NCBI GenBank assembly: GCA_905250025.1
Contig: CAJNOJ010000016.1
Coordinates: 558,001 to 622,000 of the forward strand
From: Adineta ricciae
Taxonomy: Eukaryota > Rotifera > Eurotatoria > Adinetida > Adinetidae
Direction: 5' to 3'
DNA: 64,000 nt
Shown here: piece by piece, positions 1 to 49,052 of the stretch
Position numbering within the stretch: position 1 is the first letter of the stretch
Layout of the letters: every line of letters begins with the position of its first letter
The notes under the pieces: model-generated
What the model was told of the DNA's origin: nothing
The model's database searches: none
Seen by the model: only the letters and a program-made list of their open reading frames with translations
Made by a program: the position numbers and the translations under genes

Positions 1-957
1 TTTTTGTCCGATCATAGAAAAACTATTGTCAGTTGAAAGTATGATAACATCGATAGGTGAAGTATGATTTGCCACGCAAATTGAACCAGATTTAGCACGA
101 TGTTCCGTATTATGATATGTTATTATAGCAGAGAAGACACGGGATAAAATACGATGTAGGACGATATTGATATAAAATCCATAGCGTAATTTGGCGTTCT
201 TTCCTGGAAAATATTTGAGAAATACTGCTGAGCACAACATCCAAAGAATAGCGAGAATGAATAGACAGAGACGAAATGGAAATAGGATAAAATAACGAAC
301 GCAAAAGCCGAGAAACCAAAGTGCGGTAATACGTAAAGAGAAATATTCGTGTTGTTGTTGAGTACGAGTTAATAGATTCCAAACGGCCATTTCTTCAGCG
401 GATGAAAAACGTTTTGTTACTTCGTCATCAACGATAGCTTCAAGACCTTGACGGGTATAATCCATAATATCTCCTTTAAAAGAAGAAAAAGCAAACGAAC
501 TTGAGTATAACAAGTGGCAGTCTCAAATCTTACCTAATCGAAATTGAATGTCTGATTGTGATGAACCTCGTGAGACTTTCTGCTGAACATCCAATGCCGT
601 TTCCAATGATGTTTCATTTGTCTCGTTAGACTTCGTTTCATCATTTTTAGTTGAACCACTTACTAATGGTGTGTCAGAAGTCATTTCGATAGGGTCATCG
701 GATGACCTTTCTACTAGATTAGATGTACTTGAGTTCGGAGTAGATGTCGATGGTTCATCGGAAGATTCATTGGAAAGTTCTTTGTCGTTTTTTATTTTCG
801 TGGCATAATCAAATATGAATCCGAGTATTCGAACATAGAGACTTCGCACTCCAAGTGAACAATTCATTGCAGCGAGTGCAAGTACGAGAGCAGCTATGCT
901 GATCATCGGTGTGCATAGGAGTCCTATGATTGTGAATATTTGTGCCGTTGTTGCCAT
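1..957 (-). CDS. Glycerol-3-phosphate acyltransferase, GPAT3/GPAT4-like (5' part; cut by left edge)
   Basis: It acylates glycerol-3-phosphate to lysophosphatidic acid at the ER, the first step of glycerolipid synthesis. Exon 1 (957..534) starts at an ATG and encodes a hydrophobic N-terminal segment (about residues 8-32), then a Ser/Thr/Asn/Glu-rich linker. A 60-nt GT-AG intron follows, and exon 2 (473..1) reads in frame: MDYTRQGLEAIVDDE, VTKRF, ALWFLGFCVRYFILFPFR (membrane segment), then acyltransferase block I, VANHTSPIDVIIL (NHX4D), and SMIGQ. The order and spacing match animal GPAT3/4, including the 'G.E.I.DDEVTKRFS' stretch. The glycerol-phosphate-binding blocks III/IV lie outside the window. 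The linker is more Ser/Thr-rich than I recall for vertebrate enzymes. The family assignment is firm; GPAT3 versus GPAT4 cannot be decided. Confidence 0.9.
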
Positions 958-1741
958 GATTTAATTACCAGTTAGTATCAAAGTCTAGAAGAAGAACTAA
1001 ACAGTATGAAGAAATTGAATGGTACAAAGATCAACAAACTTGATAGAATAAATCATTTTGAAAATAAAAAAAAGAAAGAAAGAAAAGATATATTTTTCTC
1101 TCATGACTCGCGTTCTGTTGATCATTCTGTTCATAAGAAATAATCATACAGGCAACCAAGTGTCTACACTGTTTTTCTTTCTCTTTTCGTAGATATAGTT
1201 CGATTATTGGATTCTCTCTTTCGTGAAAAGAAAACATGCGATGACGGACTAATCACATTGTGTTTCGAAACCCTCGATCAGGAATGGATATATATATATA
1301 TGCGTATTATAAACATACGATAGAACGGAAAGAAAACAAGATAATGAAAAGAGAAGAGAAGAGAAGCTACGCAAGCAAGAAGAACAAAACTAATGATAAA
1401 TAAAGTAAGTCTTATTTGATTAAAATTGATGTTCGGCCAAAAAAAATAGCACAAGTCACAATGAAGCCCAAGCGAGATTCGATTATCATATCACGAAATT
1501 GAATCAGGATTAATAAATGAAAGAAAAGTCAGGTATATATGTATATATCACGAAAACAGATAATATTATGATTGTTCGCAAAAAAGAACAAGTTGCTTAA
1601 ATTGTTTCGGAATGTTTCTCATCTGCGATTGGCTTTATACCATGTTGAGGAACGGTTACGATATTACCCAACGGCGCCATTGCTCTCATCGAATGTAACG
1701 ACAATCTTGAAATATAGAAAAGAAAAAGACATCTTTCGTTT
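958..1741. other. Intergenic: GPAT upstream region and MFSD5 3' end
   Basis: No supported gene. It holds A/G-rich tracts (about 1060-1085 and 1330-1385), a short (TA)n run near 1289-1299 and AT-rich sequence. Short open frames on both strands have no family signature. The promoter of the GPAT-like gene should lie just above 957, but I see no clear TATA box. Confidence 0.6.
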
Positions 1742-3773
1742 TTATTTTAACATCTTTGCAGCTTCGGCGGCGTACCGGTGTAAGCAAAATATACTGATAC
1801 CAGCCAAGAGCAAGAAAAGAATACAACTAGTAAAGATAGTTTTCAGCTCAAAATCCTAAAACATCACGAAAAAAGTTGTTTTATTTTTTTAGAAGAAAAA
1901 GTTTCCAATGAAATTTACTTTCAGGAGGATAATCACGACAATTAAGTTTAATGGAATACGAAAGTAATTCATCACAGTCGCACGTGCTATTATATTAAAC
2001 AAACAGGATGAAATACGAAAGAGAAAAGACTTAACTAGAAATCTTACCTTCTTCAGGAACGTATTTGCTGCGCAATTGTGCCATAGCTCTAATTAGATTA
2101 AAAAAAAACTTTACTAAATGTTGGCTATAATTTAATGAGTGATACATGAAACAATTCCTCAAATTAACATGTCGATGAGCATGTATTCGAGGTCAGAGGA
2201 TGCGCTGAACATGTTTCTTTGACGTTAGAAAAGAAAACGGAAAACTTTTGTAAGTCACTTACGGCCAGAAGATACCGACACACGATTCAAAAATCAAAAA
2301 TCCAGCAAACATAATCGATTGAGCGGTTGGCATGAAAACAGGTACACTCATGCACAAAGCCGAAATGAGAATGACGGGCCTAAAATGACAAAATCAGATT
2401 GATATATTCGACAACAAATAAAACCTCACCGCATGAACGACTCCGGTGTTGTATATTTACATAAAACTTTGAATAAATTCGAGCCAATCATCATCGATAC
2501 CATGTAACTTGCGAAGATATAACCTGAATATAAGAATAGATTATTTCGAAAAAATCAATGTTAATTCAAAACCATGCGGAATTGGTGGATTTTTATTATC
2601 GGTCTTATCGATAGTAGATTTATTTAACGCTTGAGTCAATGCCGGTGTCCATTCGAGAACGAAAACGTACATCGATGCTTCGAAGAGAGCTTGAACAATA
2701 CCAAGGTAGCAAATTTTTCGATCTGAAATATCTCTACGTGATTATTTACATTGAAGGTAGTAATTACTTTACCAGATTTAATTGCATTCCAAGCCGATAC
2801 AAATGATTGCATCGCAGGAGCATTCGCATCACCATAATTTTCCGTCCACGTCGTTATTAACAATGCACACATTGCAATAAATGAGATAATGGCACTATCG
2901 AATGGTGCACTAAACAAATATCGAAAGTTGAACTTTTCTTTTCTGATTTGTACTCTTTGCTTACACATATCCGAATGTATTAGCCACATTTTGTGCGACG
3001 ATTCCCGAGATGATAGCTACCAAAGAATTTCCGAATGCTGCATTTGCAAAAATAATTGTCAATGTTTCAGGTTCGTAATTTCTCTATAGAAATTCAGTTC
3101 GTGATTCATTGATGTTCGAAGCAAGAAAATATGCCATACTCGTTGATGTTCATTGACTAACCACGATTCGAATGCGCTGAACAAAATCGATGTAGCGATT
3201 CCGGCAAGTATTCGGCCAAAGAAGAGAATGTAAAAATTGGGAAAATGCTACAAGTAGAATGATTCCTATCCTTAGTAAGGCTTTGTTTTCTTGGCATTGC
3301 TAACCTTAGTTGCGCATGATAAGCCGTAGAGAATGCCATACACGAGACATGTGTTTCTCCTTCCACTAGATAAAAAAACATGAGTTCCCAGACGAAAGAG
3401 AGAAGTTTTGGTTTACTATTTATCAGCAAGTGATGCGATAACTGTTCCAAAAATCATCGAAGAGCCAAAACCAGCGATGAAAAGAACTTCGATTTCATGC
3501 TTTTTTATGTTATAACTTTCGTACAGAGCGTAAACATGAGGCCCTTGAAGCCAATCAGCAGCTGAAAGGAGAGAAAGTGATGATTGATACGATATACGCG
3601 TTTTTCCGAAAAGAAAATTTTTTACCGACGGCTAATAAGTAAACAAACAAATATGTTTGTTGAAAGCCTCGAAATGACGGATCTTTTGGCTGTTGTTGAA
3701 CTTGCCGCGTGTAAAAATGAACAATTAAGCAGAGAAGTATGAGAAATCCAAGAGCAAAAACAAACATATCCAT
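1742..3773 (-). CDS. MFSD5: MFSD5-like major facilitator transporter (molybdate-anion transporter family)
   Basis: A multi-pass transporter; human MFSD5 and its algal relative MOT2 are linked to molybdate uptake. Spliced exons give an N-terminal membrane segment (MDMFVFALGFLILLCLIVHF), FRGFQQTYLFVYLLAV, then ADWLQGPHVYALYESY, GSSMIFGTVIASLADKYGRRN (the MFS loop 2-3 motif), FFGRILAGIATSILFSAFESW, TENYGD, ALFEASMYVFVLEWTPAL, KYVPEEARATVMNYFRIPLN and a last membrane segment ending AAKMLK-stop. Each block lines up with human MFSD5 (ADWLQ.P..Y.LY, GRALGG.STALLFSAFEAW, LFESVIF.FVFLWTP, VIPETE.AGVLNWFRVPLH). About ten exons are separated by roughly 45-65-nt introns with all phases consistent. The stop is at 1742-1744. 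MFSD5 identity is confident; the substrate is inferred from the family only. Confidence 0.88.
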
Positions 3774-4476
3774 GATTAGCGCTGCTCTGTTCGTTCAAAA
3801 CGTAGCAAAAAAATACTGTTCGTTCTGCTTCAATGAAATGCTATCTTTGAAACGTAAGCAAGCAAGGTTGGACTCCCTCTCGTCTTTTTCTTCGTACTCG
3901 TTCTTTAAAATGACTACGAGTAAAAGTATTCTACATCAATCAATTGAAAGCAGACATATGTATATAATGCACTAAAAGTCTACCAATCAGAAGCCTTATA
4001 TAGCTACGGATGAAAAAGATGTCGCTGTTTGTTATCGACTGTGTGCCGTGTCGGCGAATATTTCGATAGCAGAATTCTTCGGCGATAAACAGAACGAGCT
4101 TTCTCGTCAATTTCTTTGAATTTTTAAAAGTATTACTGAGAAGAATACCGAAGCTGACGCATAAGAACGTTTGTTCGCTTATCGAACAATTATAGAAAGT
4201 AGTTGAATGAAAGAACAATTTAATTAAAAATTCAATTTCTTTGTTAACGGTTAGCGAAGAATTGGTTCTGTTTTTTTGTTATGTGAGTATGTAGAAAAAT
4301 ACAAGAAACACTGTATATCATTAGTTATTGCTGCACAAGCAGAGAAAAACATCACTGTAATACACACGCGCACGCACACAAATTGGAATAAAGATTTCCC
4401 CTGCATGACAACATCAGATCGGGTTAGTAGAGAAAAGGAAAAAAAATTGTCTTTGTACAAATAATGAATGTACATA
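3774..4476. other. Intergenic between two minus-strand genes
   Basis: AT-rich, no supported gene. Short frames on both strands show low complexity and no recognisable domain. It should contain the MFSD5 promoter (near 3780-3900) and the 3' end of the LRP-like gene. Confidence 0.6.
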
Positions 4477-7400
4477 TCAAGGCACTAGCATCTTATCATC
4501 GTCACTACTCGCTTGTTCGTCATCTCCAAGAGCAGCTAACGGTAGCGGCGACGGTGTTGACTGTTGTTCCGATTGTTCACCATGATTTCGTATTGTATGC
4601 AACGGTATATGATGTTTTCGAGTACGAATAAACGTTGCCGATGATCTCGGGGGCAGAGCCGACGTCAAGTATTGAATATCATTTTCATGGCAAGGTGATG
4701 ATAATGGTTCTTCGGCATACGGCGGTGGTGCTTCATGAGATTGAATATAAGATCGAGTAGAGAGAATGATCGGTTGAGTAGAAGTACGACGTTCACATGT
4801 ATCGAGCTCATTTGAAGCGATACTGTTACTGTTCACTGAAAGATTTGTGGTGAATAGAGAACGAAATTGTGAACGAAAACGGTCAAGTCGACTCATGGAC
4901 GGCGTAGCTGCGGCAGAAACAGTTGAAAAAGGAGTCTGAGGTTGTGAATTTGTAATAAGAGGATCTAATAAAGCAGCACGAGAATCTAAATGAGAGCATA
5001 TGAATAGAGCAAATGTTAAAAACTCGTCCACTTACTGTCATATTCAGTTCGACGATGGCGATGACGATGATGTCGATGTCTTCGATGTCTCCTACTTCGA
5101 TATCTGGATGATCTTGAGCTAGAGATAGTTGCTGGTGTTGGAATGAAATTTGCTAAACCAGCCATTCGTAGATGTTCAGCTAGAAATGCTTGTCGTTCTT
5201 CATTATCATCAGAAAAGCCCATTGTTTGATTGTACGATGGAGGTGCAAGGCGTCGAGATTCATCTGCTGACAGCGATGAATCATCGTTCGCTGAGTGATG
5301 AGTACTTGTTTGTCGTTGAAGTTCTTCTCTTCGCTGTTCGATGTATCGTTGTGGATTCAACAGACGATACGACGCTCGACGTTCAGCTGAACGTAAATGG
5401 AAAAGTTTACATGTACATGCAAGGGCGATAATGAATAGTGTTGAACAAATTGTAGCACCAATCACAGCTGCGGTCACAACTCGACGAGGTATCCGAGACG
5501 GACAATTTGTTTCATCGGAATTATCACCACAATCATCGGTACCTAAAGATAAAATTATTATTTTTTTACCATGAAGTATTTCATAGTGACTCACCATCAC
5601 AAACCCATGTTTCGTAGATGCAATTTCGATTTTTGCAAAGAAAAGTTCCATTGTTTGAATTACACCACCAACTCGTGCAGTCTCTCTCATCCGTACGATT
5701 GACACAAAATGCATTGCCATTACATCGTTCATACCATGTATAACATCGCGGTCGATCCGTCGGCAAGCGCAATGGATCATTGCACGCAAACATTGTCGGA
5801 CATGAACTGGGAAAACAACCTAATTCATCATCACCGCTAATACAATCCCAAATACCTTAAAATTCAAATCATTCAGCATAAAAATGACTTCATCGATCAA
5901 TACAGACCATCACAACGTTGCTGTTTGGTATAGCATTTCAATTCAAAGCGTCCACCGCAGGCTATTTCATCGTCGGAACATAAACTAGTTACCCAGGTGA
6001 TATTTAACGAAGCGTCGTTTCCATAGAGATCGTCAATAGGAGCGATTGCATCTGAGCTAATATATGAACGTTTTCGTATCACAATAGTAATCAGATGATG
6101 CTGGTAAGTTTGAACAATTTGTCTAGTTGAATACCAATTCGATGAGACCAATGACAGATTTTGTTCTTCAGTCCCATCATAGACGCGATATTCTAAGTTT
6201 GGATGTTGTTCAATAAATTGATATTGATTCAAATTGAGTTTTATTTTATGTTTTTCTTCCGCAACTAGAACTAAACACAATGATTGGCGATCAGCAAGGA
6301 CGGAACTATCAAGAGAAATTTCGCCGTGATGTTGATGGTAGGACACAACTGTTTCACATTGTTGAGAATAGGAACATTGCGATGGTTGACCATATGGAAT
6401 ACAAACACCTACAACATAAAAAGGAAGTATTTTTATGTAGGCCCGGAAGAAAAAGTGGTGTTTTTTTCATCAGCAGATGGTTTTTGTGACGTGCTTATCT
6501 GATATTATTTAATGAGTGGGAGAAAAAAACATTACGCCTGTTTATTCCTGTCGGTTAAACTTTTATATTTGTTGATAATGTATTTTATTAATAAAGAACG
6601 CAATGATAACCGAAAAGTCATCGATGCCTTAATTCTTTCATAGATAAAAAAAAAGAAATCTAGCCATCGAATTCATAAAAATGTAGACACCATCGAGAGT
6701 TATGCTGAACAACTTTCCTCATGGAACTTTCCAGTACTAGCATCCTCATCTTGTTTCCTTATGCGCACGTAACTCAATCGAGGCCAGGCGGCATAATCCA
6801 TTCCAATTAGTTCTTAAGCTAATGATCTTATTCATGATTAATAATTCCACTCAGACGTTCTCTTTTGTCATGTGATACACATAAAGTTATTCATCGAAAT
6901 AGAGAGAAATTTACCTTTTCGATCAATTGGATTCTTTCGATTGTTCGATGGTAAACACCAGCGTTCGTGTGAATGACATAATAAACTATTCATTGGGTCG
7001 ACAATCGAACAGACGGGACAGTTGGCTTCATCACTGTAGTCACCAGGTGGACATTCGTGTAAACAATTGCATTTCCATTGTTTCGGAATGAAAACGCCGC
7101 TTGTTGCACAAGGAAAATAATTCGTACTGTTGATCTTATTATTCACATAGAAAAATTCCAGTAGAAAACGATGAATGTTCAAGCTTTTTGCTAAAGTCTT
7201 TTGTCGAATATCGATTTGTAAATCTCCCGATGATGGAATGGTAATCACTTGTTGACTGATGTTGCTAAGAATGATCTGTGTTCGGTCGGTTCTGAATGCT
7301 AGCTCATGGGGTGTGAAATTTTCTTCATTGTCAATTTCGATTCGTCGCAATGAGATGCGGTAATACGACAGGGCAGCTTGTTTTTCATTGCGAATTCGCC

Positions 7401-7551
7401 ATGAATAGGAAAGATTTCTTGGATGAGATTCACCCAAGAAGTAATTGTAATTCTCGATATGACCAAATGAGGTATTCAAATAGGAATTTGCCGAAGTTGA
7501 TGCGAACAAGAGAGAAAACACGAGAAGAAGGTCATAATAATCATAAGACAT
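4477..7551 (-). CDS. CUB/LDL-receptor class A transmembrane protein, LRP3/LRP10/LRP12-like
   Basis: A type I membrane receptor. Exon 1 (7551..6915) encodes a signal peptide (about residues 5-22), a CUB-like domain and an LDLa-type cysteine module ending DYSDEANC. After an unusually long 500-nt intron, exon 2 (from 6411) carries a second CUB-like region and CSDDEIACGGRFELKCY.....CDG. Later exons add IWDCISGDDELGC, a further Cys-rich module, CVNRTDERDC, then TDDCGDNSDETNC, one membrane helix (VVTAAVIGATICSTLFIIAL) and a cytoplasmic CTCKLFHLRSAERR...RLAPPSYNQ. This CUB-LDLa-CUB-LDLa-TM order and the CTCKL/APPSY tail match LRP3/10/12 (LRP12 has GCTCKLYSLR and EAPPSYGQL). A His/Arg-rich run precedes the last intron. 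The exon-final phase-1 Gly codon recurs at module borders. The intron near 5905-5858 has a weak donor (gtctgt). Role probably endocytic or signalling, by family. Confidence 0.87.
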
Positions 7552-8000
7552 ATCGTGAATATAGGAGTAGATTTAAATGTCTCATAAAAAAATGAAAATG
7601 CCTTGCGAGAGGAGAAAAACTTTCGCCATGTTTTTTAATCGTGTCATTGAACCTCTCCTGTCCGTGTCGCTAGAGTCAACGCGAATGAAACTCATCTGTT
7701 ACGTATATATCACAAGTTGTTTTTATGATCACGTCAGCTTTAGGATTTGAGTAAGTAATCGAGAGGAGAAGGAGGAAATCAAAAAAATAAGCTTTTATTA
7801 GTCAATGTTTTAAACCAATAAAGAAAAAACAATGTTTTTTTTTCTCTCGAGACAAAGAGAAAATAAATAACATCTGCCATCGCTAGATTGAGCGTGAGGT
7901 TGAGTTGATATAACAAAGGTTCATATTGATAGTTCGATTCGAAAGAATTACTCATCGTTTTGATTTCGATTTCAGAAAGAACTGCTCGTTTGTTTTGCTC
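7552..8000. other. Intergenic, divergent promoter region (LRP-like / TXNDC15-like)
   Basis: It separates the minus-strand LRP-like gene from the plus-strand thioredoxin gene, so both promoters should lie here. A pyrimidine-rich AG acceptor-like site (gatttcgatttcag, ending near 7973) just before the predicted start at 8001 suggests that an upstream exon of the thioredoxin gene may be hidden here. Confidence 0.5.
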
Positions 8001-8773
8001 ATGGCGACAACATCGATCTATGAAATATTTCATTACATTCCTCCAACGATTCATCAATGTCAATCAACATCTGTAGCTACTAATCTGTCGAATAGTAGCT
8101 CAATTTTCCTTTCGTACCAGCAACCATTTATTCCGTGTCAATTGCATAATATGACAGATAATTATACAAATCATGTTCAACTTGTCGATAGCAACTATTT
8201 GATGCGTGCGCCTACACATTTCGATTGTTATGTTCTCTTGTTCTTTGCTCGTTGGTGTCAATTCTCTGTTCGATTTGCGCCCTTTTTCAATGCAATTCCA
8301 CGCTCATTTCCTGGTCTCGATTTCGTGGCCTACGATGTATCCAAATCACTTCGGTAGGACGACTAGTTCACGAAAATCTTCTTATATCTCATCCCCTTTC
8401 AAGCTATATGACCTATTTTGGTACCAATGCTGTACCGAGCGTGTTCATACTACGTAAAAACAAACTATTAGCTAGATTAAATAGCACGAACGATATACAA
8501 ATCTTACTTTCCCTGATTGAATCAACGCTACGTAAGGAAAAACGACTGAACACTGCCGATTTGTCTAATATTGAACATTTAGATCTAAATCAAACGAATA
8601 ACGTGACGATTGAAGAAGAAGATCGTCTCGGACCTGTCACGACAATATTTGAACCTTCGTTTGATTATGCTCTGTTCTTCTCATGGTTATTTGTTGGATT
8701 TTTTCTTTATTACTACGCGGATAAATATAAACTTTTCACACGAATACGTCAAAGATTTTCACATGAAAACTAA
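8001..8773 (+). CDS. TXNDC15: Thioredoxin domain-containing protein 15-like (TXNDC15), ER/ciliary membrane protein
   Basis: Exon 1 (8001..8353) and exon 2 (8404..8773) are joined by a 50-nt GT-AG intron, about 240 aa. The core reads MVQLV-like HVQLVDSNYL, DCYVLLFFARWCQFSVRFAPFFNAIPRSF, then FGTNAVPSVFILRKNKLLARLN, DRLGPV and a C-terminal membrane segment (about YALFFSWLFVGFFLYYY). Human TXNDC15 has [39 protein letters not shown] and IGPLPS before its TM helix. As in TXNDC15, the active site is WC.FS rather than CXXC, so classical dithiol oxidoreductase activity is not expected. Human TXNDC15 is a ciliopathy (Meckel) gene. No signal peptide follows the ATG at 8001; an upstream exon ending near 7914 with an acceptor at about 7973 could supply it. 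Identity is confident; the start is uncertain. Confidence 0.87.
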
Positions 8774-9558
8774 TTGTACTTGTTTTTCTTTATTCTAGTC
8801 ATATCTGTTTATCTTTTCTAGATATAAAAAAAACTCTTTATCATTGAATTACGCCGAATATTTAATTTCTACCTAGAACAGAGATAATCATTCATCCGAC
8901 GTCAAATTCAATCAATGAGTCCCATTAATCACGACCATAATGATGATGGCATTTATTCAATTTTCTCTTTGAACGAACTTTAGGTTTATCCATTTTGACG
9001 ATCGCTTAGGTTCTCTTTTGAAATTTGTTCTAAAAGGATGTTTTTCATCAACGTCTAAGCAAACATTTCTATCTAGTTGATAAGTTTTGTCGTTTCTTTT
9101 TCTTTTTTAAAGTCTCTAACAATTCGGTTTAGTATTCGATGAGATGCGCCATTAATTCGATAGTTTCTTTTTGCGTCGCAGTCATGGACGATTGGCAAAT
9201 GTTGACAGTTTTCTTTCGCGTTCTCCGACCATAGTGTGTCAGTCGTTGCTGGTTTGCACTTGTTCATGTCGTTGATATTAGTAGCAAATTCTTTTCTTTT
9301 TTTTCTCTCCGGCTTTTTCTATTACGCTCGTCTATTAGACAAAAAAAGTACCCATGCATTTTACTCGTCTTTTTTCCCTCTTCGTTCGGCGTTTTATCTC
9401 GCTACTAAGTTAGCAACAAGCGAACGCTGTTTCTCTCGCTTGTTACGAATAGGTGTCGACAAGATATTAGATTTAATTAGTAAAATGAGACAGTGTATTT
9501 AAGTAGAAGAGAAGGAAAAATGATCGTCTCGGATTTCTTCTAGATCTTCTATATACGA
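8774..9558. other. Intergenic, TXNDC15-like to desaturase
   Basis: No supported gene. AT-rich with pyrimidine tracts on the plus strand (about 9270-9440). Short frames have no family signature. The desaturase promoter should lie in the last 200 bases. Confidence 0.6.
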
Positions 9559-11588
9559 ATGGGTAAAGGTAGTAAAAACTGGGATCCTCCTACTGTCACC
9601 GATGAACAACAAGATGATTCATCAATGATGACAACTTTGAATTCTAGTCTTCACGAGAAAGGGCAATTCACATGGGAAGAAATTCGTCGTCATTCCAACA
9701 AGAAAGATCGCTGGTTAGTGATCAATAATCGCGTTTACGATGTAACAAAATGGTTGAAACATCCAGGCGGACAAATGGTTCTTAATCACTATGCTGGCCA
9801 GGACGCAACCGTAAGAGAAAGATTAATTAAAACGAAAGCTTGTCATGACGGCGGCGTTTTTCTTCTTCTTTTTTTCCATTTAATCAGGAAGCATTTCATG
9901 CTCTGCATCCTGGAATCAACGTAGTGCAGAAATATCTCAAACCATTCTATATTGGTGATGTTGCCACTGATGAAGATTATGTCGACGACGATCAAGCTTT
10001 AAAAGCTGATTTTGAAAAATTAAGACAAAAAGCCATTTCTAAAGTATATTATTTAATTGATAAGCATCTTTTCAATTAAATACGTGATTTTGTCTAGAAA
10101 CTTTTCCAACCGAGCCGTTTCTTCTTTGTGTTAGCATGTGCACATATCTTACTGTTGGAAATCGCTGCATATTTTGTTATCTTTCGGTATGGAACTGGTT
10201 GGATACCTTATTTTCTCGCCGTTGCTTTTTATGCCGCGGCAGAAGTACGTATTTTTCTGGTGTTTTGCTCATTTATGAATGTCTATGTTATTTTAGGCGC
10301 AATGCGGCTGGATTCAACATGATTTTGGACACTTATCAGTATTTAAAAAGAGCAAGTGGAATCATTTGTTACATCAAATGTATATTGGCTTCACTAAGGT
10401 TTGCCGAATTCATGTTAAGAATTGACTAATGACACAGATTTGTTGTAGGGAGCAAGTGCAGATTGGTGGAATCATATGCATTTTCAGCATCATTCAAAAC
10501 CGAATGTTATCGATAAAGATCCGGACACACGTGTAGAACCGATCTTCGTCCTCGGTGATAAAATTCCGATACGCGTAAATAAAACATGCTTTCTCTTACA
10601 TTTCATGGTCTGCATATATTGATCTTTCAGGCAGCTCATCATAATGCTAAATATGGAAAAGCTTTACCTTACAATCTTCAGAACTTGTATTTCTTCATTG
10701 GTAAAAGTTCTTTTTCTTCGTCCGTTGATTTCTCTATGTTTGTACTATATTTCAGCTGCACCACTCCTGTTTCCAGTTTATTTTCAATTCATGACGATTC
10801 GACATGCAATCAAACGAAATAAATGGATGGTACATCTCAATGTACATATACTTATTGACTTGCTCTCATTTGCTTTCTACGTAGGACCTTTTCTGGCTAA
10901 GTTTGTTTTACATCAAATTCTTTACCATAATGCCGATGAAAGTTGGCCTTTTCGGTGCACTGAAATTACTTTTTATCATTCGGTAAGATTGTTTACCTCA
11001 CCATTCGTTCAACAAATCAAATTCTTTCTTTGTTTTTTTTTCTATAGTGTATTTGAAGGAACTTGGTTCGGTATGTTAAATAAATGCATTCGATATTTCT
11101 CTTATTGAAGTCTACTGTTTAGTTCTCGTAGCACAATCGAATCATGTCGTCATGGATGTATCCCATGACGATGTAAAATCCAGTTGGTTTCGTATGCAAT
11201 TGAAAGCCACATGCAATATCGAAAAATCTCATTTCAATGATTGGTTTACTGGCCATTTGAATTTCCAAATTGAACACCAGTATGTTAACCATTAATTGGC
11301 AATGTTCAAACACAGGTTCTTCTTTCGTTTCAGTTTATTCCCCATGATGCCTCGTCATAATCTTTATAAAATTCAACCGGACGTCATCGAGTTATGTCAT
11401 AAATACAATTTACCTTATATCGTCAAACCAATGGGTCAAGCGTTCGCGGATATTTTAACGTAAGTTGAACAATTGTAGATTTCATGAGCCATTCGTTCGC
11501 AATTTATTACAGTTCTCTGGAAACATCTGGTAAAATGTGGATGGAAACCTATGAAGAATTAATGAATGCGTCTAAATCAATGAAATAA
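9559..11588 (+). CDS. Cytochrome b5-fused front-end fatty acid desaturase (delta-5/6 type)
   Basis: A membrane enzyme of the ER that inserts a double bond between the carboxyl group and an existing double bond in polyunsaturated fatty acids, using its own cytochrome b5 domain as electron donor. Twelve exons (9559-9810, 9888-10043, 10098-10244, 10297-10398, 10449-10574, 10631-10700, 10756-10829, 10885-10982, 11048-11070, 11111-11279, 11334-11459, 11513-11588) give 472 aa with all phases matching. The b5 domain shows HPGG (about residue 75) and EAFHALHP. The histidine boxes are HDFGH, HFQHH and QIEHH; the Q replacing the first His of box 3 is diagnostic of front-end desaturases. Membrane segments lie before box 1 ([20 protein letters not shown]) and before box 3. 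Exon 9 is only 23 nt. The regiospecificity cannot be read from sequence. Confidence 0.95.
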
Positions 11589-14549: not shown

Positions 14550-17500
14550 TTACAAGTAAATAGATTTCAATACGTTTTTCTCCGACGGTGTTGCTGAAGT
14601 AGAGTTTGAATGTTCTTTCTTTGACTTGATCCGCATAAACTCATTTAGAATATATTGACAGATCTTAGGATGAAAACCAGAATCAGCTGCTGCTGTTTGA
14701 GCAGCTTGAGTAATTTCAATACCATCACCATCATCTTCATTATCACTCACAGAAGTGGCACTCATCATATGCTCTTGTCGGAAACCTATCATGGGCAGAG
14801 ATGGTATAGATGTTGATCGTTTTTTTTGAAGTTTTTTTTGATTTGTATCACAATCTTTGACGGCTTTTCTCAAAGTTGCGTAAGTACCTCGACTCAACCA
14901 AGTGATTGAAGATAGAGTAGCAGTGGCAGGCTTGACAAGAACATTGACAGTACCCAGTAATGCTCCTCCTGCGCCACCCAATGTTCCATGTCGTTTGTAA
15001 CCCGCAAGCGGTTCTTTTACAATACCAGTAACACCGTCTTTCCATCCATACCAGAGTGACTGTCTAGCAGCTTTGACGCCAGATTTGAAACCAGTAACAT
15101 TGTGGTGTTTATGCGTATTTGGTTTGCTAGAACGAAGAAAAAAAAATTCTTCGCGACAGGAGTGCTCATGTCGATATCTCACCTGTATGGATCATATAGC
15201 GAAGGGGCTTGTTCTAGGACGTCCGTAATATCACCATATAAAGACAAACATCCTAGGGACAAATGTCCCAGACCACGACCAATACCCTTCACAACTGTTC
15301 CGCCTGCATCTGCTGTGCCTGCTAGTAGATCATCGCTGCTAGCAACTTGTTTGATTCCTTTCGTCGTATCAACAAACAAATTGGAAACAGCTTTTGATGT
15401 GTGTTGAACGACACCATGTGTTGGCACTGATAGTCTATCGTTGTGTGCATATTGCCATTCTCGCGTGATATTATATCTGAGATCCGATTCAGCTATCATA
15501 CCTGCAGATATGAGAACTTGAGCTACAGGTTGCGAGATTTTTATGTCATATTTATTCACACGGTAACACGCAGCAAATGTTGACTCGAGATCGCTTCGCA
15601 TACGCAACAGTGGTAGATTAGCATGGAATGCGCGCACTGCTGCCTCACACCCATTTTCTTGTAATAATGCTGTTCGTAGACGTTGAGCAGCACTTTGCAC
15701 ATCTTCTGTGAGAACAAATCTGAAAGCATCTGCTAGTTGTTCAACAGTAACTGATTTGCCAGGTAATGGTTGAGATCCTGCACCTGTTCTTTCGACGACA
15801 TTACCCCAAAAGAATTGATCTCCAAAGAACGGAATAATAATTGTCGGTTTACCAGCACGTAAACCAGCGGCAGTTGTTCCTGCACCTCCATGATGACATA
15901 CAGCATTTACTGAAATTACGCAGATTGTAAAAAGAAGCAACTATCATTAATTGTAGGACTTACCATACTGGAATAGCCAATCATGTGGTACATTACCAAT
16001 TGGAAAAATGTTACTCGATAATTTGATTGTGTCGAGTTTAAAGCCAGCGAGTAAAGCTCGATAACCGGTTTGACGGAGAGCTTCGATAACAACTTTCAAA
16101 AGACGACGTGAATCGTGTCCTGTGATCGAACCGAAGCCGATATAGATCAGTGGTGGTAATTTACTACCGTAATTCATATTCTGCATATTTATTCCGAGAA
16201 AATTGAGTAGATCTTGAGGAGGATCGGTATATGTCGTGCCAAGATTGAGAAAGAAGTATCCGGATACGTCAATATGCGGTCCCCAATCATGCGGCTTTGG
16301 TACTATGGTCGGAGACCAACAATAAGTATGTGGCACTTGCTCAGTAATCATTGCTTTAACGGCTGCACGGGATCGTAGTGCTGTCAGAGCCAATGTTTTC
16401 TTTCGAAATCTATTTACAATATCTCCCATTCCACTCCATGTCTATGAAAAGATGAGAGTGGCTCTATTGTGACGATGTATCGCCATAGAAACTTACCAGC
16501 ATCTCCACGATTTCATACGAATAACGATTGAGTTTTTCTGTCGGTCCCTTGCAATGTTCCATATTACACAACGGATGAGGAAACGCACCTGTCGGTGAGT
16601 AGGGCATCGTAAACATAATATGTAATGGAATTTGTAATTTCTCAGCACAATGTATATGTCCAAAAGACGGCGGATTAGCGATGATTGCATCTGCTCGAAA
16701 CGGAAGTGATGTTTCATCATCATTAGCTGTACACGCGTGCCATGTCGATTCGAGAATATCAGCAAGTGATTGACGTTTTTTGGTCACATCACCTGCAATA
16801 ATACTGCTCATTGATGGAACAATACCAGCATTCTTTACCATAAATTCCATTAAATCAGCAGGATCGCCAGCTAATGGATAAAATTCGAGACCATTACCAC
16901 GAACAAAGGATCGAAAGGTTTCATGCGTAGCTAGTCGAACACGATGGCCAGCCGCGCGCAGTGTCTGACCAAGGCTAGAAAATATTTTCAATAGAAACAA
17001 GTTCTCGATGAAAGTAAGTTACTCACGCAATAAAAGGTTGTACATCTCCGCGTGTGCCAACAATAAGAATGACAATAGCCAGGCGCGGAATTGGTATATC
17101 ATCAGCCAATGGTTCCTGTATTCTAATCTTTTGTTTTTCACGAGGCGATGAATGTTCTGATTCTTCGTCGAAGCTTTGCTCAGAATCGAAATCAACCTCA
17201 ATACGTCCATCATCATCAACCAATGAAACTGTGTATTGAAGAACATTCTTTTCATTCCGATCGACTGCTTTAGTTTCACCAAGTTGAATCTGTCCAGAAG
17301 CGTAGATGACTTTACCATAGATCAACAGACGCGCATGAAACGAAAGTGTCATCTTTGGACAGAGAATTAATAAAATATTGTCTGTATCTTCCTCGCTTAA
17401 CAAGTGTTGCGTCAATTCAATAGGTTTCTCCAACGACAACAGCGAACCAGAAAAGATTGGCACTTGATTAAGCCATATGGCTGCATAACCATTTAATGCA

Positions 17501-17769
17501 TTAGAATTATTCTCATTAGTTGGTTGTTTAAAATATAGCTGAACCTGTTGTCCGGACGCGATCCAATGAAATTCTTTACGGTACCACCATTTATGAAGCT
17601 GCACTTCGGAACCGCTGTTCTGCTGATCATAGTGGGGCAGTGTTATTGAAGACCATTGATGATTCTCATAGATCGTAGCTGTATTCAAGACATCACCGTT
17701 TGTTTGTTGAAAACATTCCCAATCAGCATCGAAGTTGATTTTGGACCGATCATCGTTTGATGTAGACAT
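14550..17769 (-). CDS. Sterol 3-beta-glucosyltransferase (UGT80/GT28-like) with N-terminal GH2-type beta-sandwich and C-terminal VPS13/ATG2-like tail
   Basis: It would transfer glucose from UDP-glucose to sterols. Exon 1 (17769..17027) encodes a jelly-roll-like domain resembling the sugar-binding domain of GH2 beta-galactosidases ([41 protein letters not shown]), an acidic linker, then the GT entry motif [18 protein letters not shown]. Exon 2 continues [18 protein letters not shown]. Later exons give [30 protein letters not shown] and the nucleotide-sugar signature [20 protein letters not shown], then [10 protein letters not shown]. The C-terminal part is Gly-rich with [20 protein letters not shown] and [20 protein letters not shown], like the C-terminal repeats of VPS13/ATG2 and of some fungal sterol glucosyltransferases. 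Six or so short introns are in phase. Sterol glucosyltransferases are typical of plants, fungi and protists; transfer into the lineage is a possibility that needs a tree. Confidence 0.9.
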
Positions 17770-17798
17770 ATTTTCATCAAACTTAGGTAAATGCTTTG

Positions 17799-17806
17799 TT
17801 TATATA
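17799..17806 (-). promoter_or_regulatory. Candidate TATA box of the sterol glucosyltransferase gene
   Basis: TATATAAA reads on the minus strand, about 30 bases before the start codon at 17769. The position would give a very short 5' leader, so it may be fortuitous. Confidence 0.35.
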
Positions 17807-17937: not shown

Positions 17938-18558
17938 TTATGAGTATTTTTTAATAACTGTGACTATATCTGGAAAGTCAGGACATAAAAAATGATTTCG
18001 ATCAGTAAATTCATGGTATACACTTCGCAATTCGTTCGCTATGTATCGACTGCTAACCACTGAGGTGAACGGATCATCTGTACTATGGAATTGTTCAATC
18101 CACTGTGTATTTGACTTGATCTTCTTCCAGTTCCAGTTGGAATCATTTTCGTTGCTGTCATACCCAGCTGATACTAAGATAATCCCTTTCACTTTCATTT
18201 GTTCACACAAACGTAGAATAGCCATAGCTCCCGAACTATGGCCAACTAAGATGTCATCCTAGACATAGCTATGCAGATGCATCGAACGTTGAAATGTACA
18301 ATTTACCTCTTGAACTTTCAGATCATTAATTAAGAACGGTATCCAGATGGAATCTTTAGCTTCTTTTTCATCTGGAAAAGCCGGTGCAATGGCATTCATA
18401 CCTAACTTATTTAACTCTCCTTCTAACCATTTATACCAATACCGATTGACAATTCCCGGTGTCATAGCACTGCCATGTATGATTATAACTCGTTGTTTCG
18501 ATTTTCGGTCCTAAAATATAAAGATAGACGCTTTTCGACGAACACGATTTGTTACCAT
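17938..18558 (-). CDS. RBBP9: RBBP9-family serine hydrolase
   Basis: An alpha/beta hydrolase of about 175 aa, the length of human RBBP9. The exons are 18558..18556 (the start codon alone), 18510..18307 and 18258..17938, with introns of 45 and 48 nt, both phase 0. Sequence blocks: RVIIIHGSAMTPG, YWYKWLEGELNK, AFPDEKEAKDSIWIPFLINDL, then DDILVGHSSGAMAILRLCE (nucleophile Ser in GHSSGA), GIILVSAGYD, NWKKIKSNTQWIEQFHSTDDPF (catalytic Asp region) and HEFTDRNHF (catalytic His). Human RBBP9 has [52 protein letters not shown] and HKFTDCGHF. A first exon whose coding content is only ATG is unusual but fits the phase exactly. Cellular role in rotifers unknown. Confidence 0.9.
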
Positions 18559-19031
18559 TGGTTGATTGGATTTTATTCTTATGTAGTGTACGTAGTAAAC
18601 GACCACATGGTTTTTTCCCTTCCTTCAGAAGAAATTGTCCTTTGACGGATACGGTTAGGTGTTTTCGATCATTATAAGATGAGTCATTAGAGAATGGAAA
18701 TTGATAAAAGCCCATGTCATATTTTTGCGAAATACGGCTAGATTCTTTCCTTCCTTTCTTGCATATGTGAAAAGAAATAACTAAAATTTGCTGTGTACTT
18801 GCACAGCGAGAATGAATCACCCTGACGTCGTGCGTTATTGCTGAAGTTAAGAGAAACAGTTTCGCGATAATGAAAATTTCATCAGAAATATTCACAAGTC
18901 TTGCGCTGATTCCTGAAAAAAAATTATCTAGCTTACAAAAGAAGATTTTCTTTTCAGTGCTGCAATTACATAGCATATAAAAGCGTCAATTGTCTTCATT
19001 TTAAACACACATTCACAGCACGATATCTAAA
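18559..19031. other. Divergent intergenic region RBBP9 / rvt
   Basis: About 470 bases between two genes read outward. It holds a candidate TATA box for rvt near 18976 and no other recognised element. The minus-strand open frame across it overlaps the RBBP9 exons in another frame and is a shadow. Confidence 0.55.
18976..18982 (+). promoter_or_regulatory. Candidate TATA box of the rvt gene
   Basis: TATAAAA, 50 bases before the ATG at 19032, would place transcription start near 19006-19012 and give a short leader. This is a normal core-promoter layout and argues for a regular cellular gene. Confidence 0.5.
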
Positions 19032-21593
19032 ATGCAACCGCAAGCATCGACTACAGTTTCAATGTCGCCTGATCGTGAGGCGCTGAGTATGATGACCAAA
19101 TTGAAACTAGATCGTTTCAAGCAACAGAAAATGAAATTCGAAGAAGAACATGCTCGGATTGTAGCTCAACAAGCTGATGCCAGTATCTCATTGCTGGACA
19201 AAATTGAAATATTGAGTAAAAGTATCGAAAAGTTATTCGGCGAAGAAGGCAAAGACAGATATCTGAGAAACTTCGAACCGTTCATGGCTGTTGCGAAAGC
19301 CAACACGTCAACATTGACAAATTTACTCGAAAATCAATATGAGTCATTGTTGAAAGTGATCGTCGGTGGTAAAAAACGCTCGGAGTATAATTATCTCTTT
19401 GGATCCATCATGTCACAATGGTTATCTGGACAGAATAATGAAATGGCACCATTAAAAGTCACAACCACCAAGGATAGTTTGTTGACGAACGAACATCTAG
19501 AAAAGATTATCTTCGAACGACCAATGTTAGATTTGGAACAATGGCGTGAATTTCTGCAAACGAAACTTTTTGCCAATTTGAATAATGATCAGAAATGGGA
19601 AACTATTTTTGATGAATTCAAATCAGCCACTGAAAGATACAGTAAAGTCTTATTGACCGAGAAAGTAACGCCAGCTGATGTTCAGCGAGCAATTAGTGGT
19701 TTGATCAATGGAGGCGGATTGGATGATTATCGAAAACGATTATTAACGAAGTTGAAATTAGACGAGAATGCTGTTAATGAATTTGCTTCGTCATTAACCT
19801 TACTGATCTCCGATCTATCAGACTGGAGATGGACAACAGAAGGTGTTCGTGGCATTTTTCGACGTAATCTAGCGGGGAAATATAGGTGTTTCTACGAAGA
19901 AGACTTTCTCACCGCTATTTTTCTGGAACACATCGGGTTGAAATGGAGTTACCATTTTAAAGCTGAATTGAAAGAACTTTTTCTGCTGTTAACCAAAAAA
20001 GCACGAACGAGGTGCTCATCCAATTCTATTCAACATTACCGCTTGACAATGCAACAGAAAGATTATTGGATGGCATCATTACCAGATGAACATGATGGTG
20101 AATCAGGAGTGGCTGCCTACGAACAAAATAGCTCATTGGATTTGAAAACAAAACTGTTCTACTTAGTAAATGTTGAAATTCAGTTACATCAAGTTGTAAG
20201 ACCAAATCTGCCATTTAATGTGGTTACGACTGATCTCGAATGGTTTGGACCATCGATTTCACATGAAATCATCCAGATCTTCCTTCAAGCTTGTGGTATA
20301 TCACAAATCTGGCTTGATTTCTTCGATCGATTTCTTAAACAACCGGTTTATTACAAGCCAGGTGACGCTCCTCGACAACGTCAACGTGGTGTACCTATTT
20401 CACATTCGTTGTCATACTTGTTCTCCGAATTGCTCATCTTTGGCATGGATCTTTATGTCTATCGAAACACGGGCATTTTCAACTATCGTCTTCACGATGA
20501 CTTTTGGTTCTTCCATCACGACACACCAAAGATCGACCAAGCCTGGACACTAATGACCGAGTACGCACAAATGACTGGTCTGAAGTTCAATGCGGAAAAA
20601 TGTGGTTCTGTGCAAATTCAGCCAGCAAACGCAGATAATCAAGCTGTTCAAGTGCTCAAGAGCAGTGTCCTACCATCGAAAGAAGTCAAATGGGGATTTC
20701 TGAATTTACAACCATCAGGTCGTTTTACAGTAAATCGCGACGCATTAGTTCCTTATCTTGATGAAATGAAAGATCGATTGGCAAAGGCACCAACCGTGTT
20801 AGAATGGGTTGAAATCTATGACCAATACATTTCTTTCTTCATGAGAAATTTCGGTAAATGCGCAAACATCTTAGGCACATATCACACTGAACAGATGTGG
20901 GAAACATTTCAAGTTCTTCATAAACATGTGTTCTCCGAAACAGATGGCAACGCGATCACTGTTTTAGCCAAACGAATTGAGGACAATTTCTCAACTTCTT
21001 CAATAGGCCAACTCTGCGAAGGTTGGTTCTACTGGCCATTGATTCAAGGTGGATTGGGCTTGAAAAATATCTATCTTACTTTATATGGTTATCACCAACA
21101 GTTACTCTTAACAAACCTGGAAACGTTCAGCCAGCTGCCAGAGAAAGACGTGGAACTGTACGCTGATTTAGTCGAGAAGTACAAAGCAGCTAAGAGGAGT
21201 CGAGATTACAAGGGATTGCTGGAATATCTTCACGAGGATGAAACATTAATTACTTTAGATGAATACACACAAATTCGTGAAACTTGCCATTCACACTGGA
21301 CAAATGTCTATCAACAAATGTTGCAAGTCACTCTCACACGCCGACCACCGTTTGACCAGCAAGAAGAATTCAATCGAGCCCTACGTGGAATGTTAGGAAC
21401 GCCATCGACAGGTCGATCACGACGGAAAGGACCTGATGATAATTACGTAATGTGGCTACTCTCATACTATGGTAAACAAATTCAAACCACATTCAATCAA
21501 CTGGACTTCATCGATAGCGCTAGTTTACCTATTGGTTTGATCACACTGATGAAATCAACGAAAATTAACTGGAATACAGAATCTGAAAATTAG
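19032..21593 (+). CDS. rvt: rvt: domesticated single-copy reverse-transcriptase-related gene (RVT)
   Basis: An intronless 853-aa open frame. The N-terminal about 100 residues are charged and coiled-coil-like (TKLKLDRFKQQKMKFEEEHARI). The polymerase core shows motif A around D401 (NVVTTDLEWFGPSISHEIIQ), motif B from R452 (QRGVPISHSLSYLFSELLIFGMDL), motif C RLHDDFWFF (D489, D490), motif D TGLKFNAEKCGSV and motif E VKWGFLNL. The L/F-HDD form of the usual YXDD box, the RGVP.SH motif B and the long surrounding segments are those of the RVT class known from fungi, bdelloid rotifers and some plants and bacteria, which are cellular genes and not retroelements. No endonuclease, RNase H, gag, LTR or target-site duplication is seen; an AATAAA lies 85 bases after the stop. 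All catalytic aspartates are present, so the polymerase fold is probably active. The biological role is unresolved in the literature. Confidence 0.93.
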   Translation: MQPQASTTVSMSPDREALSMMTKLKLDRFKQQKMKFEEEHARIVAQQADASISLLDKIEILSKSIEKLFGEEGKDRYLRNFEPFMAVAKANTSTLTNLLENQYESLLKVIVGGKKRSEYNYLFGSIMSQWLSGQNNEMAPLKVTTTKDSLLTNEHLEKIIFERPMLDLEQWREFLQTKLFANLNNDQKWETIFDEFKSATERYSKVLLTEKVTPADVQRAISGLINGGGLDDYRKRLLTKLKLDENAVNEFASSLTLLISDLSDWRWTTEGVRGIFRRNLAGKYRCFYEEDFLTAIFLEHIGLKWSYHFKAELKELFLLLTKKARTRCSSNSIQHYRLTMQQKDYWMASLPDEHDGESGVAAYEQNSSLDLKTKLFYLVNVEIQLHQVVRPNLPFNVVTTDLEWFGPSISHEIIQIFLQACGISQIWLDFFDRFLKQPVYYKPGDAPRQRQRGVPISHSLSYLFSELLIFGMDLYVYRNTGIFNYRLHDDFWFFHHDTPKIDQAWTLMTEYAQMTGLKFNAEKCGSVQIQPANADNQAVQVLKSSVLPSKEVKWGFLNLQPSGRFTVNRDALVPYLDEMKDRLAKAPTVLEWVEIYDQYISFFMRNFGKCANILGTYHTEQMWETFQVLHKHVFSETDGNAITVLAKRIEDNFSTSSIGQLCEGWFYWPLIQGGLGLKNIYLTLYGYHQQLLLTNLETFSQLPEKDVELYADLVEKYKAAKRSRDYKGLLEYLHEDETLITLDEYTQIRETCHSHWTNVYQQMLQVTLTRRPPFDQQEEFNRALRGMLGTPSTGRSRRKGPDDNYVMWLLSYYGKQIQTTFNQLDFIDSASLPIGLITLMKSTKINWNTESEN

Positions 21594-21793
21594 ATCTAGC
21601 TTAACCGTGTATCGAATTTCACCTATCGAAAGTGTGAAATTTTTGTAAATGAGACTTTTTTTCAAACGTCATTTTGAATAAAATCTTGAAAACACATCAT
21701 ACATACGCCTAGGGTGACTACCAGCATAGAATAATGATTTATTGTCTAAAGAATTTCGACAAAAAAACTAAGGCAACACAAAAATATAATTAA

Positions 21794-22594
21794 CTAGTCG
21801 TTTTTTCGGGTAGACGACTTGCCGGGCGAAAAAACATATTGTTCTATGAAAAATTTCAAGAAAAACAAACAATAAACTGGTACCAGAGCATACGGAACTA
21901 GAAAGATAATCAAATGATCACGAGAAAAATTCCGATAATTCGGACAAAGATCAGGTACGATATGCCACATGTATGTTAATGTTATCAACTGTATAATTTG
22001 TAGTCCTGTAATGATTGGTCGGAAAATTTTCGATAAACGAAATGCAAAATGATAATACATGAGCACATGAACGAAACCATTTAATAACATTCCACCTTTT
22101 TCTGGACCGGGTAAGTTCATAACGCATAACATGAGTAAGAATGTTGTCGCATGATGATACGTATGAAGAAATCCAATCTTTTTCAATGAATGCCCTTTCC
22201 AAATTAGAATGGCCGTGTCAATCCATTCCCAAATTTTCGATAAAGTAAACGTGATTGATACTGCACGAAGCCATGGAGGTAAGGGATCACAGATATAACG
22301 TGTCCAACTGGTGATTTCTCCGGTTACAACTATATGATAGAAAGCAGCGAGAAATGAAAAGAGGGAATACAAGAATAATAATGCATGATGAAGTTTTCCA
22401 AAGGATTCCTTGAAGCTTGGCGTTAGTTTCGATGTAAACCATGGGAAAACGGCGGTAATTAAAAATAAATAAACTAAACATGATCCTATGGAGATCGCGT
22501 ATGTCCACGGTGGATAGAGATGAATCATTTCCTGCTTGTATGGTATTTCCATTTGGAAACGTTCGAAGAGAAAGAGGTAATATGGCGATGACAT
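21794..22594 (-). CDS. ELO-family very-long-chain fatty acid elongase (3-ketoacyl-CoA synthase)
   Basis: A multi-pass ER enzyme that condenses malonyl-CoA with acyl-CoA. Single exon, 266 aa, about seven hydrophobic segments. Signatures: LSKIWEWIDTAIL (ELO K.WE..DT), the catalytic histidine box LHTYHH (residues 144-148 for HTYHH) and NGFVHVLMYYHFAF, followed by LQIIQL. The HTYHH form of the box is the one I associate with fungal ELO2/ELO3 and related proteins, whereas vertebrate ELOVL proteins have HVYHH or HWYHH. Substrate class cannot be fixed from sequence. It lies 10 kb from the front-end desaturase, with which it would act in the same pathway, but the genes are not adjacent. An acceptor-like AG at about 22617 sits 23 bases before the ATG. 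Confidence 0.92.
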   Translation of the reverse strand: MSSPYYLFLFERFQMEIPYKQEMIHLYPPWTYAISIGSCLVYLFLITAVFPWFTSKLTPSFKESFGKLHHALLFLYSLFSFLAAFYHIVVTGEITSWTRYICDPLPPWLRAVSITFTLSKIWEWIDTAILIWKGHSLKKIGFLHTYHHATTFLLMLCVMNLPGPEKGGMLLNGFVHVLMYYHFAFRLSKIFRPIITGLQIIQLITLTYMWHIVPDLCPNYRNFSRDHLIIFLVPYALVPVYCLFFLKFFIEQYVFSPGKSSTRKND

Positions 22595-48234: not shown

Positions 48235-48711
48235 AAATTAACTGATTTCATTTCACATTTTAGTAAAAATCGTAAAGATAATAAAATACATAGAAATTTC
48301 ACCATCGCAGAATGACTTCTAATCATGGTACCAGTAATCGAAATGTATACTGGTTGAAAAGCTTTCAGCGCAATCCCTAACGGGATTAAAAATGTGAAAC
48401 ACGATCCAACTGGAGAAACTTTCAACACATAGAATGGTCAATTTATTTCCCAGTGTGCATTCCTATTTATTTAAACTTAAGCTGTTGAAAATAACATATC
48501 ATTCTCAATAGTGATGTCCGCTGCTTGTTAAAAGGTCTTCGTTTCATCGGTCACAATATCTGATGCTTCTTATTGCGCTTCCATTAACCGATCACGATCT
48601 GTGCTGAGATCTACGTGGGTCGACGTAACGAAGTTGAGAGTCACCCTGTCTGTGAGACAATGATATAGAGTTTATTTGTCTTTTCACATAACAACCTCTC
48701 TCTCTCTCTCT

Positions 48712-48868
48712 CGACGGGTTTGTCACAGGGCTTTTGAGCTTGTTTATAACGGTATTTGACTGGTTTTTGGGCCTGTCTGTAACGTCTGTGATGGGGCTTT
48801 TGAGGCACCTGTAACGTCGATGATGGAATTTTTGGCCTGTCGGTCACGGTCTGTGATGGGGTTTTCCC
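48712..48868. repeat. Degenerate tandem repeat, period about 30-34 bases
   Basis: Units share the core CTGTNNGTNACGTCTGTGATGG with a TTTTGRGG/TTTTTGG tail: 48772-48805, 48806-48834 and 48835-48868, plus weaker units upstream from 48712. The GC content is well above its surroundings. Confidence 0.65.
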
Positions 48869-48877
48869 AGCGTCTGT

Positions 48878-48892
48878 GGGGGGGGAGGGGGG
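48878..48892 (+). repeat. G-run with one interruption (G8 A G6)
   Basis: Read directly. Together with the GGGG/GGG runs of the adjacent repeat it may form a G-quadruplex. Confidence 0.8.
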
Positions 48893-49052
48893 TCCAAATT
48901 TCTGCCCCTACACACTTCAACACTCTCTTTCAGATCGTGTTTCACAGAATAGCAGAAACAAGCATGACCTTCTTCACAAATTCCATATTTATATTTTCGT
49001 ACTTTGCAAAAAGAAAAACTTTCGCTCACCCACACCCCTTCAACATTTTCAC

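Follow-up and report, generated by a model that had tools for sequence, protein, structure and literature searches.

The question raised by the locus described here is what a gene of the reverse transcriptase (RT) type does in a bdelloid rotifer, Adineta ricciae, when it carries none of the usual features of a mobile element. Together with telomerase, rvt genes are among the few genes of this type kept as ordinary cellular genes; they were reportedly described by Gladyshev and Arkhipova in 2011, and their role is unsettled. The copy at the present locus is intact, and the assembly shows no other match to it. It lies in a stretch of 64,000 nucleotides, hereafter the window (C16:558001-622000, in an assembly of 130 Mb and 1,033 contigs), and all positions below are those of the window. 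The class being already known, this gene is a further member of it; what is added here is the equivalence of rvt with the bacterial RT group UG37, the nesting of bdelloid rvt among fungal sequences, the two bdelloid lineages, and a block of genes without counterpart.

An open reading frame (ORF) free of internal stops runs on the forward strand from an ATG at 19032 to 21593, and encodes 853 amino acids in a single exon, as had been proposed in a preliminary description made from the sequence alone. With the stop-codon frequency of the window (0.0567), the probability of finding an open frame of 862 codons by chance is approximately 10−22, so that chance does not account for it. The motifs given in that description, namely D401, RGVPISH (452–458), LHDD (487–490), FNAEKCG (519–525) and VKWGFLNL (552–559), were all read at these residues, and the protein contains an RT palm with the catalytic D and xxDD, as well as rvt-type motifs. 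Pfam gave a sub-threshold match to RVT_1 (15.6 bits, for a cut-off of 29.6) and one more weak match. None of the domains of a mobile element (RNase H, endonuclease, integrase, gag) was detected in the protein by Pfam.

Next, relatives were sought in a protein collection, in which 7,994 candidates were scored. This yielded 61 proteins, query included, from bdelloids, fungi and metagenomes, one of them (P0059) being evidently bacterial. Bdelloid relatives (Adineta, Rotaria, Didymodactylos) were 41–69% identical to the query over the aligned parts, and fungal ones 23–33%. A profile search added a protein of Rhizophlyctis rosea at 34% (36% in alignment A3, below), so that fungal relatives span 23–36%. 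The nearest named relative was Adineta vaga I4U23_012862 (69%, 727 amino acids as annotated), Rotaria proteins were at 59–60% with few indels, and the A. vaga “Reverse transcriptase-like protein” G3KGU9 was at 41% over 98% of the length. The existence of such relatives in A. vaga and Rotaria indicates that the frame was kept through a long divergence. Homology to bdelloid and fungal rvt proteins was full-length, and the identification as rvt was upheld. No named animal beyond bdelloids was found among the 61 relatives, a weak absence given the 7,994 candidates scored. Two alignments were used, A1 with 25 rvt proteins, and A3 with 22 bacterial (nine), fungal, bdelloid and unassigned rows. Twenty-seven columns of A1 were invariant, D401, D489 and D490 included, and these three aspartates were also present in all nine bacterial rows of A3.

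The relation to bacterial RTs came from the PADLOC model RT_UG37 (PDLC03776), which matched residues 20–692 of the rvt protein with an E-value of 1.7×10−72 (242.6 bits, profile positions 8–667 of 778). The same model matched all 25 proteins of A1 and all of 7 further proteins, in a scan of ten that repeated three from A1. P0059 matched it with 754 bits and led to 91 more proteins, whose names include members of Chloroflexota, Planctomycetota, Actinomycetota and Myxococcota. A comparison by hhalign of the 25 rvt proteins with 25 bacterial ones gave a probability of 100 and an E-value of 4×10−93 over 753 columns, at 23% identity, N-terminal helices included. A first scan of contigs with the eukaryotic alignment found no relatives. 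With the bacterial alignment, 158 pattern matches in GTDB contigs led to 26 loci encoding relatives, among them Herpetosiphon aurantiacus, reportedly a bacterial rvt host already in print. Because of the model matches, the full-length hhalign result and these 26 bacterial loci, rvt and UG37 are, by sequence, one family. In the literature searched, from which the 2011 rvt and 2022 UG/Abi papers were absent, no paper equating the two was found, and the link may already be published. Three of the bacterial loci (L034, L039 and L042) had the UG37 frame divided into two ORFs, as may result from decay or from an assembly error. Among viral sequences of IMG/VR, 395 pattern matches gave no relatives, and plasmids gave only two weak matches, to other RTs, at 14–15% coverage.

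We then examined where the bdelloid genes stand within this family. A first tree contained 60 of 71 proteins (at least 720 amino acids), and a second, more careful one 38 hand-picked rows with a bacterial outgroup. In both, bdelloid rvt formed one clade beside Rhizophlyctis, then Basidiobolus, apart from the other fungi. Forcing the 16 fungal rows to be monophyletic cost 60 log-likelihood units and was rejected (p-AU 5×10−5), the nesting having already been seen in the first tree before this approximately unbiased (AU) test. A long-branched metagenomic protein, P0071, fell outside fungi and bdelloids together. This nesting fits an origin in an early-diverging fungus, and we infer that the gene was acquired before the bdelloids sampled here separated; transfer in the reverse direction, from bdelloid to fungus, is less economical. 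Within bdelloids, the present gene paired with I4U23_012862 (support 100/100). As G3KGU9 branched outside the other bdelloid rows, and as Rotaria sp. Silwood2 carries two diverged forms (P0003 and P0016), bdelloid rvt appears to comprise two or more old lineages.

The rvt protein had one match in the assembly (three candidates scored), and no direct or inverted repeat of at least 20 bp was present between 16500 and 24500, where short target-site duplications, below detection, and strongly diverged or gapped repeats could remain. The absence of terminal repeats claimed in the preliminary description was borne out at this resolution. A retroelement copy was rejected on these grounds and on the lack of RNase H, endonuclease, integrase and gag domains. 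With one match, no flanking repeats found and, as described, ordinary neighbours (here a divergent serine hydrolase and a convergent ELO fatty-acid elongase), the locus looks like a resident gene and not like an element. A reservation is that the assembly may be collapsed; lost copies, merged haplotypes or a gap in the assembly may partly explain the single match. In bdelloid genomes duplicated regions stay colinear, and the window is colinear with contig C104 by DNA at 2–11,564 (a weaker protein match goes on to ∼12.5 kb) and with contig C400 at 26.3–58.7 kb. In between, a block of ∼14 kb with glycosyltransferase, serine hydrolase, rvt, ELO and LRR-like genes had no counterpart found in this partner region. 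DNA matches of window 15.2–26 kb to the rest of the genome numbered 15, of which 14 fell in the glycosyltransferase (66–69%), one in ELO and none in rvt. A counterpart of rvt at the end of C104 was looked for and discarded, C104:1-17300 having aminotransferase, JmjC and transporter genes instead; C400 begins inside a cadherin gene. Loss, insertion and a contig gap are all possible for this block, because a gap separates C104 from C400.

An AlphaFold2 model of the protein was inspected (Table 1). Its N-terminal helical region, which is alignable with bacterial UG37 proteins by hhalign, is a candidate for multimerisation, a role we infer. In the finger hairpin, R285 was found in all rows of A1 and was invariant in A3. 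Rvt proteins carry a large insertion that separates RT motifs 2 and 3, to which the ∼105 residues that follow would correspond, the motif assignment being ours; this stretch is taken to hold the loop 2a of the literature, which is described, together with the cross-domain distribution of rvt, in PMC5718144. In the thumb and linker region, H618, P669, G673, G674 and P833 were invariant in A3. VIA-align matched R2 over residues 149–836 of the model; among the matches listed for R2, LINE-1 and spliceosomal chains, identity was 8–14%. Matches to viral polymerases were taken to reflect the common palm fold.

What, then, does the gene do? Going by published work on its relatives, rvt is most likely a solo, stress-related polymerase working without template, and we consider it on balance probable that this resident, non-mobile gene serves as such under a block of translation or a shortage of amino acids. 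The 2011 abstract on rvt reportedly mentioned a preference for NTPs (nucleoside triphosphates), and a 2018 biochemical paper on a bacterial rvt is said to describe multimerisation and protein priming; Mn dependence is likewise reported for relatives. Meeting reports mention for the class terminal-transferase activity in vitro (PMC3520738) or non-templated polymerisation (PMC10680173), and the second of them states that, when amino acids are lacking or certain antibiotics are present, rvt is of help to bacteria, fungi and rotifers, catalytic residues being needed (PMC10680173). “Reverse transcriptase” names the fold of rvt, the activity of the class being reported as non-templated or terminal transferase. 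The following scheme can be proposed. Received from a fungus of an early-diverging lineage, at a time before the bdelloids sampled here split, the gene would be switched on by blocked translation or amino-acid shortage. The protein would assemble via its N-terminal helices, and D401, D489 and D490 would carry out two-metal nucleotidyl transfer, no dedicated RNA serving as template, in a synthesis probably protein-primed or of the terminal-transferase kind, on NTPs or dNTPs. The polymer, or the tailing activity itself, would help the cell through the stress.

As UG37 is counted among bacterial defence-associated RTs (DRT), a role in defence has to be weighed. A mixed scheme is conceivable, though tentative: animal rvt would be a eukaryotic UG37 branch that came through early-diverging fungi, a domesticated solo relative of defence RTs, making untemplated, protein-linked nucleic acid in stress or antiviral responses. 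We regard as doubtful that the gene is outright a eukaryotic member of these systems, acting against viruses or mobile elements through a toxic or sequestering nucleic acid. In addition to the RT_UG37 matches, rvt gave weaker matches to the Drt9, Drt6 and UG4 models, the rvt profile reached a single RT chain in the PDB, that of DRT9 (E-value 1.1×10−5), and DRT4-type systems are single-gene and untemplated (PMC13213688). On the other hand, PADLOC describes the RT_UG37 model simply as DRT, a defence test of UG37 was not found in the literature searched, and the phenotypes reported for rvt concern starvation and antibiotics (PMC10680173). A partner RNA of the DRT2 or DRT9 kind was rejected: the window had no Rfam match, and three 150-nt pieces flanking rvt did not fold clearly better than shuffled ones (z-scores −0.09, −1.59 and −0.85), though an RNA of a new type could be present.

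The neighbourhoods of the bacterial genes bear on the same point. ORFs within 7 kb in the 26 loci, many of which are cut by contig ends, were grouped by blastp. Families present in four loci were all from Herpetosiphon, and outside this genus no family was found in more than three of the 26 loci, so no conserved partner gene was detected. Fifty-eight neighbours from 18 of the loci were scanned with Pfam and PADLOC. Among 25 of the 85 Pfam families, functions were largely metabolic, housekeeping or repair, with histidyl-tRNA synthetase, dehydrogenases, MutS, SRAP and UvdE, and some LRR and kinase domains. Among 25 of the 36 PADLOC families, each was matched by one neighbour; such lone neighbours matched the RtcR-CARF, PD-T4-6 kinase, mad6 and MkoA models, a point in favour of defence. 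These neighbourhoods argue for bacterial UG37/rvt being a solo gene and do not clearly point to a defence island.

A templated role, in which cDNA would be made from cellular RNA by R2/LINE-like target-primed synthesis or by end-joining, for instance in the repair of desiccation breaks, is improbable in our view. Pfam found in the protein neither an endonuclease nor a zinc finger nor any other domain for DNA targeting, and the NTP preference reportedly mentioned in the 2011 abstract speaks against this role too. The activity reported for the class is moreover non-templated (PMC10680173). Finally, that the gene is a captured retroelement remnant, intact through recent arrival rather than selection, is very hard to believe, the block without counterpart being in its favour, and the single match without repeats, the unchanged catalytic residues and the A. 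vaga (69%) and Rotaria (59–60%, few indels) relatives being against it.

Table 1. Features of the rvt locus (window positions).
Feature	Position	Strand	Support
rvt coding sequence, 853 amino acids plus stop, single exon	19032..21593	+	frame, motifs, homology, one assembly match
N-terminal all-helical region, residues 1–260	19032..19811	+	ten helices within residues 13–260 of AlphaFold2 model
Finger hairpin with R285, ∼residues 272–289	19845..19898	+	two strands in AlphaFold2 model
∼105 residues from finger hairpin to motif A strand, putative loop 2a	19899..20213	+	AlphaFold2 model
D401, motif A catalytic aspartate	20232..20234	+	25/25 rows of A1; invariant in 22 rows of A3
RGVPISH, residues 452–458, motif B region	20385..20405	+	G453 and P455 in 25/25 of A1; R452 in 24/25
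LHDD, residues 487–490, catalytic D489 and D490	20490..20501	+	both aspartates invariant across the 22 rows of A3
FNAEKCG, residues 519–525, including N520 and K523	20586..20606	+	sequence, alignment
Helical thumb and R2-like linker region, residues 569–853	20736..21590	+	AlphaFold2 model, VIA-align to R2, invariant residues
TATAAAAG, candidate TATA box	18976..18983	+	56 nt before rvt ATG
Divergent intergenic region, 473 nt, apparently common to rvt and hydrolase	18559..19031	.	hydrolase start inferred by eye
AATAAA, candidate polyadenylation signal	21677..21682	+	84 nt beyond rvt stop codon
Divergent neighbour, serine hydrolase (PF06821) with putative short introns	17938..18558	-	
Convergent neighbour, ELO fatty-acid elongase	21794..22594	-	

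The preliminary description had also given rvt its own TATA box. The motif is indeed there, as one of five occurrences of this 8-mer over both strands of the window; that the promoter belongs to rvt alone is not established, because the upstream region appears to be common to the divergent hydrolase gene. Also upstream, TTCCTGAA at 18910–18917 resembles a heat-shock-element pair and is short enough to occur by chance. The GC content of rvt, 39.9% (38.1% at third codon positions, GC3), is the highest of six ORFs compared, though not far off the other five (31.3–37.0%, GC3 26.1–35.7%). Elsewhere in the window, a glycosyltransferase gene (family 28/UDPGT-like, 14550–17799, reverse strand) has many relatives in the genome. 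A dispersed repeat of ∼600 bp (48341–48951), ∼75–99% identical over pieces to many contigs of the same genome, is likely a non-autonomous mobile element. An 898-amino-acid tetratricopeptide-repeat protein (49053–51749, reverse strand) has a weak, sub-threshold match to arginine ADP-ribosyltransferase (E-value 6.5×10−4), and a 391-amino-acid protein of the pectinacetylesterase family (53983–55158, forward strand) is either Notum-like or a foreign gene.

The UG37 match and the fungal nesting point to Herpetosiphon, Neurospora and Rhizophlyctis as relatives to be considered, and the residues singled out by comparison are H488, W492, D401/D489/D490, R285 and K523. Compared to known systems, the highest structural similarity of the rvt model was to R2, LINE-1 and spliceosomal chains, the last of which we take to be Prp8; unlike these, rvt has no endonuclease or nucleic-acid-targeting domain found by Pfam. 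It differs from DRT9 and other defence RTs by its long N-terminal region and C-terminal linker, and in that neither a partner RNA nor a defence context was found. With bacterial UG37 it is homologous over most of its length, N-terminal helices too, and 16 columns are invariant over the 22 rows of A3; two of these, H411 and R452, are not fully kept in A1, where they vary in 2 and in 1 of the 25 rows. Identity to the present protein is 21–24% for eight bacterial rows of A3 and 17% for the ninth. H488 and W492 are present in all 25 rows of A1; in the nine bacterial rows the former is replaced throughout, by V, G, I, M or F, and the latter is C in seven, W in one and A in one. Finally, the gene shares with the rvt genes already described the full-length domain plan, the catalytic motifs, the insertion that follows the finger hairpin and precedes motif A, a single copy and the absence of mobile-element features, and among them it is nearer to A. 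vaga I4U23_012862 (69%) than to G3KGU9 (41%).
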